From Gammaproteobacteria bacterium (GTDB taxonomy: Bacteria; Pseudomonadota; Gammaproteobacteria; Pseudomonadales; Moraxellaceae), in NCBI GenBank assembly GCA_028868515.1, contig JAGWUI010000008.1, positions 1-64,000 on the forward strand: a stretch of 64,000 nt of DNA, read 5' to 3'. The position numbers and the translations under genes are program-made. A model generated the notes under the pieces. The model did no database searches. It was not told where the DNA came from and was given only the letters and a program-made list of their open reading frames with translations. Below, one piece after another: positions 40,368-56,240 of this stretch (the stretch's first letter is position 1; each line of letters opens with the position of its first letter).

Positions 40368-42728
40368 ATGTCTGCTCCTAACAATTCTTCTCAAAAAGCG
40401 ATTTCTGGCGCTATGCCTAAGCCTTTGTTTGATTATGATAAACATTGGGCATCGTGCTTTGAGCCTGCGCCATTCTTGCCGATGAGTCGTGCAGAGATGG
40501 ACGCGCTTGGCTGGGATGCGTGTGATGTGATCATCATTAGCGGCGATGCCTATGTCGATCATCCGTCGTTTGGGATGGCGATTATTGGGCGATTGCTGGA
40601 GGCGCAGGGTTTCCGCGTAGGGATTATTGCTCAGCCTGATTGGCATTCGGCAGATGCGTTTAAAATCTTGGGTAAACCTGTTTATTGCTTTGGTGTGACT
40701 GCGGGTAATATGGATTCGATGATTAACCGTTATACGGCTGATCGTAAGACGCGTTCAGATGATGCGTATTCACCGAATAATGCCCCTGATAAGCGTCCAG
40801 ATCGCGCGGCTGTGGTGTATTCCCAGCGTTGCCGAGAAGCATATTCTGATGTGCCGATTATCTTGGGTGGCATTGAGGCGAGTTTACGTCGTATTGCGCA
40901 CTATGATTATTGGCAGGATAAAGTTCGTCGTTCGATCATTACCGATGCTAAAGCTGATATTTTGCTCTATGGCAATGCCGAACGTGCGATTGTTGATGTT
41001 GTACATCGTCTGGCAAAAGGCGATCGTATTGATCAGATCACGGATTTACGCGGTACGAGTTTTATTCTGAATGAAACGCGTAAAGTGGCGAAAGCGGATT
41101 ACTTTGAGATCGCTAGTAATGATGTCGATACGCCCGGACGTGTTGACGCGATTATCAATCCGTATGTGATGACTGAAGATTTAGAAAGTTGTGATGTTGA
41201 AAAGAACAATCCTAAGAATCCAAATCCTTCAACCTACGAGGGTTTTGTTAAAGAAGCAGTTGCTAATCCAGTAGTCAATGCAGACATTGTAGACAGTCAT
41301 AAGCTGGATAAAGATACTCAAATTGTCTCGTTACGTCCTGCGCCAAGCAAAGCCATCAAACATCGTCTGCCACCGCGTGAGTTATCGGTGATTCGCTTGC
41401 CTGACTATGATCAGGTTAAAGATGATCCAGTGCTCTATGCTCACGCCAACCGCATTTTGCATTTAGAAACCAATCCAGGTAATGCGCGTGCAATGGTGCA
41501 ACGTCATGGCGACCGTGATGTGTGGTTGAATGCACCGCCAATTCCATTATCGACCGAAGAAATGGACTATGTCTTTGATCTGCCGTATGCGCGTGTTCCG
41601 CATCCAGTTTATGGCGATGCGCGGATTCCAGCGTATGACATGATCAAGTTTTCGGTCAATATCATGCGCGGTTGTTTTGGTGGTTGTACGTTCTGTTCAA
41701 TTACTGAGCATGAAGGACGAATTATTCAGAATCGTTCAGAAGAATCAATTTTGCGCGAAGTAGAAAGTATTCGTGATACGACACCGGGCTTTACTGGGAT
41801 TATTTCCGATCTTGGCGGGCCAACGGCAAATATGTATCGCCTTGCGTGTAAAGATCCTGAAATCGAGAAAAATTGTCGTAAGCCGTCGTGTGTATATCCG
41901 GGAGTCTGTGAGAATTTAGGTACAGATCATAGTCATCTCACCCAACTTTACCGTAAAGCACGTGCGATCAAGGGTATCAAGAAAATCTTGATTGGTTCTG
42001 GTCTACGCTATGACTTGGCCGTACTTAATCCTGAATATGTCAAAGAGCTGGTGACGCACCATGTTGGCGGTTATCTGAAAATTGCCCCTGAGCATACCGA
42101 AGGCGGGCCGTTGTCGAAGATGATGAAGCCGGGGATTGGAACGTATGATCGTTTCAAACAGTTGTTTGATCGGTTTAGTAAAGAAGCGGGTAAAGAGCAA
42201 TATTTGATTCCCTATTTCATCGCGGCGCATCCGGGGACAACGGATCAGGATATGATGAATTTGGCGTTGTGGTTGAAGAAAAATGGCTTCCGTGCAGATC
42301 AAGTACAGACGTTCTATCCATCGCCAATGGCAACTGCAACCGCGATGTATCATTCGACCAAGAATCCTCTGCGTAAGGTGAGTCGCGGTAGTGAAACGGT
42401 GGATATTGTGAAAGGTGAGAAGCGTCGTCGTTTGCATAAAGCGTTCTTGCGTTACCACGATCCAAACAACTGGCCATTGCTGCGTGAAGCCCTCAAGAGT
42501 ATGGGACGTGCGGATTTGATTGGTAATGGTAAGCATCAGTTGATTCCGACTAATCAGCCTTTGAATAAAGAGTCTGGCGAATACAGCACTGCGCGGAAGA
42601 AGAATTCTTCGGTGGCCGGAGATTCGCGTAAGCGTTCAGGTTCACAGCCTCAAAAAGGTCAGATTTTGACGCAGCATACGGGATTGCCACCAAGAGTGAC
42701 GGGGGCGAAAAGGAAGCAGAGGGTTTAA
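40368..42728 (+). CDS. ygiQ: YgiQ-family radical SAM protein
   Basis: A 786-residue protein from the ATG at 40368 (an earlier in-frame start adds 14 residues with no conserved features). N-terminal region [32 protein letters not shown]. The radical-SAM cluster is [16 protein letters not shown] at about residues 445-455. It continues [30 protein letters not shown] and the C-terminal PHAFLRY-like region, and ends in a Lys/Arg-rich tail. The family is widely conserved; its reaction is not established. Monocistronic. Confidence 0.95.
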
Positions 42729-42750
42729 GTTTTTTGATGAAGAATGCTGT

Positions 42751-42863
42751 CAAATCTCCCCTAACCCCTCTTTCTCTAAAGAGGGGAACTTCTGGGGATT
42801 TCATGAAGGTTTGTAATTCGCAGAAAAGTCCCTCTTTAGAAAAGAGGGATTTAGGGAGATTTG
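42751..42863. repeat. 113-bp hairpin-pair element, copy A
   Basis: Ends CAAATCTCCC (left) and GGGAGATTTG (right) are inverted; inside each end lies a hairpin of the form CCCTCTTT-loop-AAAGAGGG (42765-42785 and 42829-42847 regions). It is exactly 113 bp, like copy B at 55410, and is homologous to copy B read in the opposite direction, including the core GAACTTCTG...ATGAA. It begins 22 bases after the ygiQ stop and ends 16 bases after the DUF559 stop. No clear target duplication. Confidence 0.9.
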
Positions 42864-42879
42864 AACGGCATCTGATTCA

Positions 42880-43239
42880 CTACTTTAATCGTTGAATCGT
42901 ATGAAAAATAACTTGGCAGACAGTATCCGTTTCTTGCAAAACTTGCCGATTATCAAAGCGTAAAATTGTTAATCCCAATTGATTGAGTATGTCATCTCGA
43001 ATTGCATCAGATGCTAAGCCTTCAAGGGTATGGTGTTGACTACCATCACATTCAATAACGAGTTTGGCGATTGGACAATAAAAATCAACAATGAAATTAA
43101 GGATAGGTTTTTGCCGATAAAATTGCGCACCTAAAATTTGCTTGCGTCTTAATCTTTGCCATAAGGTTTGTTCTGCATCGGTCATGTTGTTGCGTAACAT
43201 TTGAGATGGTTCTTTTAGGTGAATGTTGTAAGGTTTCAT
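42880..43239 (-). CDS. DUF559 endonuclease-like protein
   Basis: A 119-residue protein. The DUF559 domain (Vsr/very-short-patch-repair-like PD-(D/E)xK fold) covers nearly all of it: MTDAEQTLWQRLRRKQILGAQFYRQKPILNFIVDFYCP and KLVIECDGSQHHTLEGLASDAIRDDILN, with the catalytic-type Asp, the E-x-D pair (VIECDG) and QH following, and LTILRFDNRQVLQ. No natural substrate is known for most members. The gene lies between one complete 113-bp repeat (downstream, 16 bases) and a decayed copy (upstream, 77 bases) in inverted orientation. Confidence 0.9.
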   Translation of the reverse strand: MKPYNIHLKEPSQMLRNNMTDAEQTLWQRLRRKQILGAQFYRQKPILNFIVDFYCPIAKLVIECDGSQHHTLEGLASDAIRDDILNQLGLTILRFDNRQVLQETDTVCQVIFHTIQRLK

Positions 43240-43316
43240 GATTGGTTTAGTGTACTTTAAAAAATGTATAGGTTGTTTTTTTGGAGTTTTATAAAGGTTT
43301 ATTGATCTGATGCTGA

Positions 43317-43393
43317 CAAATCTCCCAAAATCCCTCGTTCTCTAAAGAGGGATTTTGCAGTGAAGCTAAATGATATTGAATTTTCAGAACTTT
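43317..43393. repeat. 113-bp hairpin-pair element, decayed copy C
   Basis: Starts CAAATCTCCC and has the hairpin CCCTCGTTCTCTAAAGAGGG, then GATTTTGCAG...GAAGCT...TTTTCAGAACTTT, which aligns with copy B (55410) in the same orientation. The second hairpin and right end are missing. It lies upstream of the DUF559 start, and copy A on the other side is in the opposite orientation. Confidence 0.8.
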
Positions 43394-43420: not shown

Positions 43421-43894
43421 TTAACCCTCATCAAGCAAATCAAAATAATCCGCACTAGAAATCGCTTTCAATAAATCATCAGGCACTAATCCAACATCCA
43501 ATCCGCGTTTTCCACCGCTGACATACACTGTTTCCAGCGACTTCGCGGTTGTATCCAATGCTGTTTTAAGCTGTTTCTTTTGTCCAATTGGGCTAATGCC
43601 ACCGACGAGATAACCTGTGATGCGCTCAGCTTCGTCAGGTTTCGCCATACGCACTTTTTTTAAGCCAAACGCATGAGCAGCTTTTTTCAGACTTAAGGTA
43701 TGAGTGACGGGAATAATTGCAACGAAGAATTGCTTTTCATCCGTAATGAGCAAGGTTTTGAAAACCTGTTGCATCGGCAAGTTGAGTTTTGTCGCGGCTT
43801 CTTCACCAAAATTAGTACAGGATGGATCATGCTCGTATTCATGAATACTAAACGTGATTTTGAGTTTTTTGAGTAAATTACATGCTGGTGTCAT
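43421..43894 (-). CDS. ybaK: YbaK/EbsC-family Cys-tRNA(Pro) deacylase
   Basis: Trans-editing enzyme that clears Cys mis-charged on tRNA-Pro. It has 157 residues from MTPACNLLKK at 43894 (E. coli YbaK also starts MTPA); longer starts add 6-18 unconserved residues. Motifs: EYEHDPSCTNFGEEAATKLNL, VFKTLLI, the lysine in PVTHTLSLKKAAHAFG, GYLVGGISPIGQKK and VYVSGGKRGLDVGL. It starts 14 bases after the tag stop, so tag and ybaK form one operon. Confidence 0.94.
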   Translation of the reverse strand: MTPACNLLKKLKITFSIHEYEHDPSCTNFGEEAATKLNLPMQQVFKTLLITDEKQFFVAIIPVTHTLSLKKAAHAFGLKKVRMAKPDEAERITGYLVGGISPIGQKKQLKTALDTTAKSLETVYVSGGKRGLDVGLVPDDLLKAISSADYFDLLDEG

Positions 43895-43908
43895 TTTAAA
43901 TCTCGAAT

Positions 43909-44508
43909 TCATTCTCTGACTGTGATGCAAGTATTTCGTACATGGCAATTCAGCTCATGATCATTCACCATGCCCACGCTCTGCATAAACGCATAACAGG
44001 TTGTTTCGCCGACAAATCGAAAACCAGCTTTTTTTAGGGCTTTAGATAGGGCGAGGCTTGGTGAGGTTTTGGTGGGTGCTTCGCGGTAGTCTTGGAGTTG
44101 GTTGATGATGGTTTTTCCACCCACAAAACTCCATGCCCATTCAGAAAAATCAATGCCTCGATCCTGCATTGCTATATAGGCTTTTGCGTTGTCACGAATG
44201 GCGGACAGCTTGCCGATATGACGAATGAGACCTGTATCAGTGACAAGTTCTGCTAGGTCTTCATCAGTGAGGAGTGCGACTTTGGTAGGGTCAAAATTGA
44301 AAAAACGTTTGCGATAATGCTCACGTTTTTTTAGCACGGTAATCCATGATAATCCTGCTTGCTGACCTTCAAGGCAAATTTTTTCAAAGAGTTTAATGGG
44401 ATCATACTGCGGACGACCCCATTCATTGTCATGATAGGCCTGATAAAGCGGATCGTCACTACACCAGCCACAGCGATGAATAGTAGGGGAAGATGGCGTT
44501 GTCGACAT
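43909..44508 (-). CDS. tag: DNA-3-methyladenine glycosylase I
   Basis: Removes 3-methyladenine from alkylated DNA. It has 199 residues from MSTTPSS at 44508 (seven further residues are open upstream). The Tag hallmarks are present: RCGWCSDDPLYQAYHDNEWGRP, FEKICLEGQQAGLSWITVLKKRE, the zinc ligands Cys (near 14) and HELNCH near the C-terminus, and YAFMQSVGMVNDHE. It is followed by ybaK. Confidence 0.96.
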   Translation of the reverse strand: MSTTPSSPTIHRCGWCSDDPLYQAYHDNEWGRPQYDPIKLFEKICLEGQQAGLSWITVLKKREHYRKRFFNFDPTKVALLTDEDLAELVTDTGLIRHIGKLSAIRDNAKAYIAMQDRGIDFSEWAWSFVGGKTIINQLQDYREAPTKTSPSLALSKALKKAGFRFVGETTCYAFMQSVGMVNDHELNCHVRNTCITVRE

Positions 44509-54957: not shown

Positions 54958-55338
54958 TTAATCAGCCAAAACCATTACACCATCCATTTCGACCAGTGCG
55001 CCACGCGGTAGGCTTGCAACGCCCAATGCTGCACGTGCAGGGTAAGGTTCAGCGAAGTATTCGCCCATGATTTGATTAACTAATTGGAAATTCGCTAAAT
55101 CGATCAAGAAAATATTGATTTTTGCGATATCCGCCAATGAGCCATTAGCCGCTTCACAGACTGCTTTGACGTTATCAAATACACGGCGAATTTGTGCTTC
55201 GATACCCTCTACAAGCTGCATGCTCTGTGGATCTAAGCCAATCTGACCTGATAAATAAACCGTATTTCCAGTTTGAATGGCTTGTGAATAAGTACCGATA
55301 GCAGCAGGTGCATTTGCAGTATGAATAACGCGGCGCAT
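54958..55338 (-). CDS. ridA: RidA, reactive imine deaminase (paralogue 2)
   Basis: A 126-residue RidA protein. [44 protein letters not shown], and the catalytic Arg in [23 protein letters not shown], with the Glu. It is the closer match to canonical E. coli RidA, which removes 2-aminoacrylate formed by threonine dehydratase. It precedes priA on the same strand. Confidence 0.95.
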
Positions 55339-55409: not shown

Positions 55410-55522
55410 CAAATCTCCCTAAATCCCTCTTTCTCTAAAGAGGGACTTTGCACGACTTCGAAGCTTTCATCAACTCCTCAGAAGTTCCCCTCTTTAGAAA
55501 AAGAGGGGCTAGGGGAGATTTG
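55410..55522. repeat. 113-bp hairpin-pair element, copy B
   Basis: Exactly 113 bp with inverted ends CAAATCTCCC / GGGGAGATTTG, each followed by a CCCTCTTT-AAAGAGGG-type hairpin (55425-55444 and 55487-55507). Read in reverse it aligns with copy A (42751) over its full length. It lies between the ridA start and the unknown gene at 55599, with no DUF559 gene nearby. Confidence 0.92.
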
Positions 55523-55598: not shown

Positions 55599-56240
55599 CT
55601 AGCCTCGACCGTTTTCTTCATCAAGTAATCGTTCTTCCGCACTACGTCCAAACAATGCCATAAAGTTCAGGTTTGCTTGTAATACCAGCTGATCTTCTCT
55701 GAGCTGTGCGCGGTTAATTTCTACACGACGAAGGACTCGCATGACTTTAGGGCGGTGAGCAAGCCAGCGTTCTAGATTGAGATGAAGTAGATTACTGCGA
55801 ACGGTAATAATGCCGAGGCGACTTAAAATATCTGCAAGCGGATCGATGCCTTTAATACGATAAAACCACAGGGCAAATTGGAATGCGATTTTTTTTGTCC
55901 ATTTGTTGAAATCAATTTGAACGACTTGAGTGCCATTTTTTTGTTCGAAGACAAGTTCTTGAGTCTCTCTATTGAGATGAAGTTGTACTAAGTACAAATC
56001 AACATAAAGCTGAGCATTGACGCCTTTAAACTCAATCGTTGCAAATAAGCGTAACCAGCCGTCAAAAATATCAGCATGTAAATCTTTAATTTCATCAACA
56101 TTTTCGGTGACATAGCGCTCAATGAAGTCATTGAGTAGCTTTTGTGATAAAGGAAGCTCGCGTTCTTCTTCGATCAATTCTTCAGCTTTCTGGTAAAAGT
56201 CTTGGACACCTGTTACCAGTCGTTGGAAAAAATTTTGCAT
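55599..56240 (-). CDS. conserved hypothetical protein
   Basis: A 213-residue protein I do not recognise. It begins MQNFFQRLVTGVQDFYQKAEELIEEE (helical), has a beta-like middle (FKGVNAQLYVDLYLVQLHLN, TQVVQIDFNKW), FALWFYRIKGIDPLADILSRLG and a C-terminal basic helix (HRPKVMRVLRRVEINRAQL). No signal peptide or membrane helix. It is divergent from the TonB-like gene and could be a soluble or membrane-peripheral protein. Confidence 0.65.
   Translation of the reverse strand: MQNFFQRLVTGVQDFYQKAEELIEEERELPLSQKLLNDFIERYVTENVDEIKDLHADIFDGWLRLFATIEFKGVNAQLYVDLYLVQLHLNRETQELVFEQKNGTQVVQIDFNKWTKKIAFQFALWFYRIKGIDPLADILSRLGIITVRSNLLHLNLERWLAHRPKVMRVLRRVEINRAQLREDQLVLQANLNFMALFGRSAEERLLDEENGRG

Follow-up and report, generated by a model that had tools for sequence, protein, structure and literature searches.

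In this work we analysed a stretch of 64,000 nucleotides (the window) from a Moraxellaceae bacterium of the Gammaproteobacteria (assembly GCA_028868515.1, contig JAGWUI010000008.1, positions 1 to 64,000), where a small gene of the DUF559 family is bracketed by copies of a palindromic repeat. Free-standing DUF559 nucleases and cognate repeats of the intrastrand-triplex type probably constitute one two-part system, in which the enzyme would bind, cut and spread its own repeats. Our data are best read as a system that resembles REP/RAYT but relies on an unrelated nuclease, DUF559 being the dedicated enzyme of these repeats. A preliminary description of this locus had suggested that gene and repeats may be a small mobile unit, with the repeats moved or maintained by the nuclease, loosely as in RAYT-REP pairs. 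At the level of sequence comparison this idea is well supported, because the repeats are enriched at DUF559 genes, their subtype tracks the protein clade and their copy number tracks the presence of the gene, with movement and cleavage as the presumed activities.

The DUF559 locus and the architecture of its repeats

The gene and the repeat copies of the window are the following:

42880-43239, minus strand: intact gene for a DUF559 (PF04480) protein of 119 amino acids, predicted EDxHD/Vsr-like nuclease (Pfam profile)
42751-42863, minus strand: copy A, inverted pair of two tag-plus-hairpin (triplex-type) elements (BLASTN)
42752-42786, plus strand: outer element of copy A, with tag at 42752-42761, 3-nucleotide linker TAA and hairpin CCCCTCTTT-CTCT-AAAGAGGGG at 42765-42786; triplex score 8/8
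42829-42863, minus strand: inner element of copy A, with hairpin at 42829-42849, 3-nucleotide linker and gene-facing tag at 42853-42863; triplex score 8/8
43317-43364, plus strand: copy C, one decayed element, with gene-facing tag at 43318-43326 and hairpin at 43332-43351 with one mismatch
55410-55522, plus strand: copy B, same dyad as copy A, away from any DUF559 gene (BLASTN)

BLASTN recovered all copies, copy A matching copy B reversed (88% over 113 bp, E 5e-35) and copy C matching copy B forward (93% over 43 bp, E 2e-13). The bracketing of the gene by copies A and C, already noticed in the preliminary description, was thus confirmed; copy A lies 16 bp downstream of the stop codon and copy C about 80 bp upstream of the start. 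The same end of the element had been said to face the gene on both sides and it does, this being the tag end. The 113-bp palindromic repeat described earlier is real, and its near-palindromy is due to its being an inverted pair of two tag-plus-hairpin elements. Copy C is a single such element, and its similarity stops near 43364 instead of reaching 43393.

The basic element of copies A and B has a pyrimidine left arm and a purine right arm (CCCTCTTT/AAAGAGGG) and a one-sided tag 3 nucleotides off (AAATCTCCC / GGGAGATTT). Across loci, it is a 9-bp pyrimidine/purine hairpin with a tag that is purine on one strand and pyrimidine on the other, usually 3 nucleotides away. Folded back, the tag can provide a third strand for the purine arm (G on GC, A on AT, T on AT). 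A perfect 8/8 third-strand match was found in 100 of 187 elements (53%), mostly with the 3-nucleotide linker, versus 10% when arms were swapped between loci, so tag and arm of one element vary together. The two halves of copy A follow this rule in full and, judged from their sequence, would be able to form an intrastrand triplex. The window repeat is therefore, beyond what was first described, a triplex-type element related to BoxC in architecture. In the rhizobial loci L124, L125, L236 and L239 arm and tag are separated by a longer linker with a mini-hairpin of its own, and by eye these repeats resemble the RIME elements of rhizobia. Matches of the palindrome in Rfam were sub-threshold, to microRNA and small RNA families only, and were disregarded.

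Intrastrand-triplex repeats of the BoxC/PIT/TM_ECO kind have been described in more than 260 genomes with strong variability among strains, and triplex formation by TM_ECO was measured in vitro (PMC4666352). According to the same authors, mobility functions were never found near these repeats (PMC4666352).

Enrichment of the repeats at DUF559 genes

In 80 Pseudomonadota loci selected solely by DUF559 score, a pyrimidine-left hairpin occurs within 450 bp of the gene in 80/80, and on both sides in 60/80. The preliminary description had proposed enrichment of the repeat near DUF559 genes as a check that could have refuted its idea, and for repeats of this architecture the outcome is strong enrichment: hairpin density is 6.3/kb within 200 bp of the gene and 0.3/kb at 1.5-4 kb. 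Hairpins of the opposite polarity are 8-fold rarer near the gene (0.78/kb), and triplex-perfect elements reach 2.04/kb there versus 0.18/kb in far non-coding DNA. For a second set, all bacterial and archaeal species were scanned and 80 named loci taken, with members from Desulfuromonadales, Chlorobiota (Chlorobaculum), Haemophilus, Chloroflexota, Nitrospirota, Patescibacteria, Omnitrophota, Gastranaerophilales and Clostridia. Here 74 of the 80 loci have a nearby hairpin (3.1/kb near versus 0.16/kb far), and triplex-perfect elements stand at 2.09/kb near versus 0.53/kb in far non-coding DNA. Over far non-coding DNA, hairpins and triplex elements are enriched 9- to 11-fold in the Pseudomonadota loci and some 4- to 5-fold in the 80 named ones. 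Such hairpins were found in 0/20 loci of weak or partial, distant DUF559-like proteins (about 3 kb scanned in each), hence the link belongs to the full-length DUF559 group. The tag points toward the gene in 74 cases and away from it in 14 (binomial p=5e-11).

DUF559 C-termini often run into the adjoining repeat (..PSPQPSP, ..NPHPNPLPE, ..RSPSP), as observed at L114, L118, L119, L126, L145 and E. coli ycjD (L173); in these cases the end of the gene is encoded by the element.

Cognate subtypes and copy number

Among relatives that share 50% or more identity with the window protein, 26 of 33 loci have arms starting with AA (AAAGRGGGG, with a tag ending in ATT); among more distant relatives it is 1 of 23. 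On a tree of 101 proteins, in which many forks are weakly supported, this subtype requires 3 changes versus 26 with shuffled labels (0/500 shuffles), and the clade spans several phyla. Protein identity correlates with repeat identity (Mantel rho 0.31, p 0.001). In addition, the repeats on the two flanks of a gene resemble each other more closely than they resemble those at further DUF559 genes of that genome (0.75 versus 0.61, p 1e-4).

Copy number was sampled in 200 Pseudomonadota genomes with the pattern CCCTCTCCC-N2-14-GGGAGAGGG. Where a strong DUF559 gene is present (n=44) the median is 8.5 copies, where it is missing (n=153) the median is 0 (p 2e-17), and the relation holds when gene presence is permuted within families (p 5e-5).

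The source genome and the neighbourhood of the gene

The source genome (3.34 Mb) encodes exactly two DUF559 genes. The window repeat occurs at about 18 places, of which 2 flank one DUF559 gene, and the palindrome CCCTCTTT-N0-6-AAAGAGGG has 17 occurrences versus 0 for the reversed control pattern; these genomic copy numbers are counts of search matches. The second gene (L001) is also bracketed by tag-plus-hairpin elements, of another family (CTTCCCCTTCAAGGGGAAG) with about 50 matches genome-wide, many of them in inverted pairs 5-15 bp apart. With so few places and only two genes, both flanked by repeats, the bracketing is beyond chance and, since each gene is flanked by its own family, both nuclease genes of this one genome have a repeat family to match. 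Within the genus, G001 and G002, both with strong DUF559 genes, have 11 and 25 matches of the second family, and the single-contig genome G003, without a strong DUF559 gene, has 0. Many free copies in the source genome (L010-L014, L016, L017) are heterodimers of two related subtypes, with CCTCCCTTT and CCCCTCTTT arms, and have TATGCCT/AGGCATA in common at their outer ends. In E. coli, type A repeats are always paired with type B, in a way comparable to these heterodimers.

The DUF559 gene of the window stands between an open reading frame that reads as YgiQ (ending at 42728) and one for a YbaK-type deacylase (43421-43948), and the gene order around ybaK differs among the orthologous loci of G001-G003, which therefore offer no clean allele lacking gene and repeats. 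Copy B lies between two minus-strand genes, one starting at 55338 and the other ending at 55599. No methyltransferase-like neighbour was read at 39-47 kb of the window, and such linkage is not obligatory (PMC12907096).

Fold and predicted activity of the protein

The window protein matches the PF04480 profile with 115.6 bits over profile positions 4-108 of 109, far above the curated cut-off of 20.6 bits, and thus belongs to DUF559. Its AlphaFold2 model (predicted local distance difference test score 89.8) resembles 3hrl, a crystal structure of a DUF559 protein (Z 16.6), as well as the catalytic domain of the homing endonuclease I-Bth0305I (3r3p, Z 11.9; profile match with E 7.5e-5) and Vsr (Z 9.9). 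The residues invariant in 22 diverse relatives are R16, E23, W27, Q43, D52, F53, E63, D65, G66, H69, D78, R81 and R94. Model and sequence together have the catalytic-domain fold and the conserved E/D/H/D set of the EDxHD homing endonucleases (E23, D52, H69, D78), and we infer that the invariant E23, D52, E63, D65, H69 and D78 fit a putative active site of EDxHD/Vsr type. Short matches to cholera and enterotoxin profiles (E about 0.05) were attributed to chance. In Caulobacter, a DUF559 protein causes DNA damage in vivo when a methyltransferase is missing (PMC12907096), and in Legionella segments with transposase and DUF559 genes are hotspots of rearrangement (PMC12308824).

YcjD and BoxC in E. 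coli

The DUF559 protein of E. coli is YcjD (b1289). BoxC repeats have been recognised in this species since the 1990s, and in K-12 a BoxC element stands directly 3' of ycjD, whose C-terminus is encoded by a BoxC-like hairpin. The gene is present in 3365 of 5426 E. coli genomes, and where it is missing the eef operon is found at that site (PMC12817139). As counted with a hybrid query, strains with ycjD carry a median of 19 BoxC copies (n=37) and strains without it 10.5 (n=22), the lowest strains having 1-3.

Alleles of individual BoxC sites differ: the element may be there or lacking, may be exchanged for REP, or may show a deletion between its arms. An internal deletion of the last type was found at alx-sstT, and the aaeR-tldD site is nearly fixed. 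At dolP-yraQ (L180/L189) and yhfZ-trpS (L182/L192), BoxC in some strains stands at the same site as REP/BIME-like sequence in others, and B2-type strains have neither of them at yhfZ-trpS. Between recX and recA, a BoxC-containing stretch of ~190 bp is present in about 1623 of 5375 matching genomes (L278/L283), and the remaining ones (L281/L282/L284) have about 15 bp of unrelated sequence instead.

Discussion

The repeats described here are of the BoxC/PIT/TM kind, and the enzyme is a member of DUF559. The window copies share with BoxC/PIT/TM_ECO (PMC4666352) the hairpin, the 3-nucleotide loop, the third-strand tag, the intergenic location, the inverted pairs and the variability among strains, and differ in being an AT-richer subtype. 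With REP/REPIN and their RAYT (TnpA-REP) they share tagged hairpins in inverted pairs, many dispersed copies and a cognate nuclease gene, in single copy, with repeats of its own subtype at its flanks. However, the tag is of the AAATCTCCC / CCCTCACCC type, capable of triplex formation, and not GTAG/GTRG, and the enzyme is PD-(D/E)XK/EDxHD-like, with a Vsr/EDxHD fold, and not an HUH tyrosine transposase; for these reasons the DUF559 system falls outside REP/RAYT in spite of its probably similar working. CGTC-tagged REPs are likewise tagged palindromes, reported without a dedicated transposase (PMC3733652), with another tag and stem. I-Bth0305I and Vsr have the same fold and putative active-site residues, but DUF559 consists of one small domain with no further DNA-binding modules, lies outside introns and has no neighbour here that reads as a cytosine methylase. 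No previous link between DUF559 and repeats was found in the open-access literature searched, subscription papers being outside the search, which suggests that the pairing of DUF559 with triplex repeats is new as far as that literature goes.

Most likely, DUF559, as a minimal EDxHD/Vsr-type domain, would recognise its own repeat subtype once this has folded, as might happen in single-stranded or extruded DNA, and would then nick or cut there. Repair, copying or recombination of the broken repeat may lead to copies being spread, converted or rearranged among intergenic sites. The copies that bracket the gene would hold gene and repeats together, with the consequence that the pair could be inherited and transferred as a unit. 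We infer that cutting or nicking of its own triplex or hairpin subtype by DUF559 drives the spread or turnover of the repeats, and copy-paste, gene conversion and break-induced rearrangement are all possible routes since no clean insertion was captured. Somewhat more doubtful, and put forward tentatively, is the wider proposal that DUF559 proteins may be the founding group of a new and very widespread class of enzymes that mobilise repeats. These stand-alone Vsr/EDxHD nucleases would take an intrastrand triplex as the substrate to be read and copied to other places in bacterial genomes, and would have converged with RAYT/REPIN without being related to it.

Several points weigh against DUF559 being the enzyme of the repeats. 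The comparison of BoxC counts with ycjD in E. coli is confounded with phylogroup, and the alleles compared there (dolP-yraQ, yhfZ-trpS, recX-recA, alx-sstT) yielded no clean BoxC insertion, no target duplication of the kind that marks MITE or IS-derived elements and no movement of the repeat by DUF559. Four genomes (G191, G212, G109 and G250, two of them incomplete) carry 32-107 copies of the CCCTCTCCC palindrome and no strong DUF559 match; in the other two the repeats may be relics or be served by another enzyme. Action on hairpin or triplex DNA is predicted for DUF559, and the Caulobacter protein has been interpreted as acting in mismatch repair (PMC12907096). This last interpretation would suit a different, unlikely role, in which the nuclease guards the genome by cutting or resolving hairpin or triplex structures that block replication and the flanking copies are autoregulatory sites. 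The Vsr-like repair fold, the instability associated with triplex motifs (PMC4666352) and the deletion between repeat arms at alx-sstT are in line with such a role. Nevertheless, a guardian would need neither tag-inward copies bracketing its own gene in every phylum nor a protein clade that predicts the repeat subtype, and genomes with a DUF559 gene hold more repeats, not fewer.

Some insertion sequence elements target REPs, and by analogy DUF559 genes might preferentially insert into existing palindromic repeats without acting on them. Their position amid repeats, often with the 3' end running into one, would agree with this, but it leaves unpredicted the matching of left and right repeats gene by gene, the congruence of protein clade and repeat subtype across phyla and the absence of repeats where the gene is absent, which makes it highly improbable. 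Even less credence is due to ordinary transcription terminators or generic intergenic hairpins beside a small gene. Hairpins are common near gene ends, and the copies of Enterobacter 638 were called putative terminators (PMC2869309); yet this explanation, already disfavoured by the conserved third-strand tag and by the enrichment over far non-coding DNA in both sets of loci, does not account for the strand polarity of the hairpins, the genome-wide repeat families or the tag that faces the gene on its upstream side as well.

Should DUF559 indeed serve the triplex repeats as their enzyme, a function could be assigned to a very common protein family whose role is obscure, and the BoxC repeats of E. 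coli, whose spread lacks an explanation, would gain an enzyme. A lifestyle like that of REP/RAYT would then have evolved repeatedly, on the basis of unrelated nucleases, and the system would be a natural example of possible triplex recognition by a nuclease. E. coli K-12, which has both ycjD and BoxC, makes the system readily testable.
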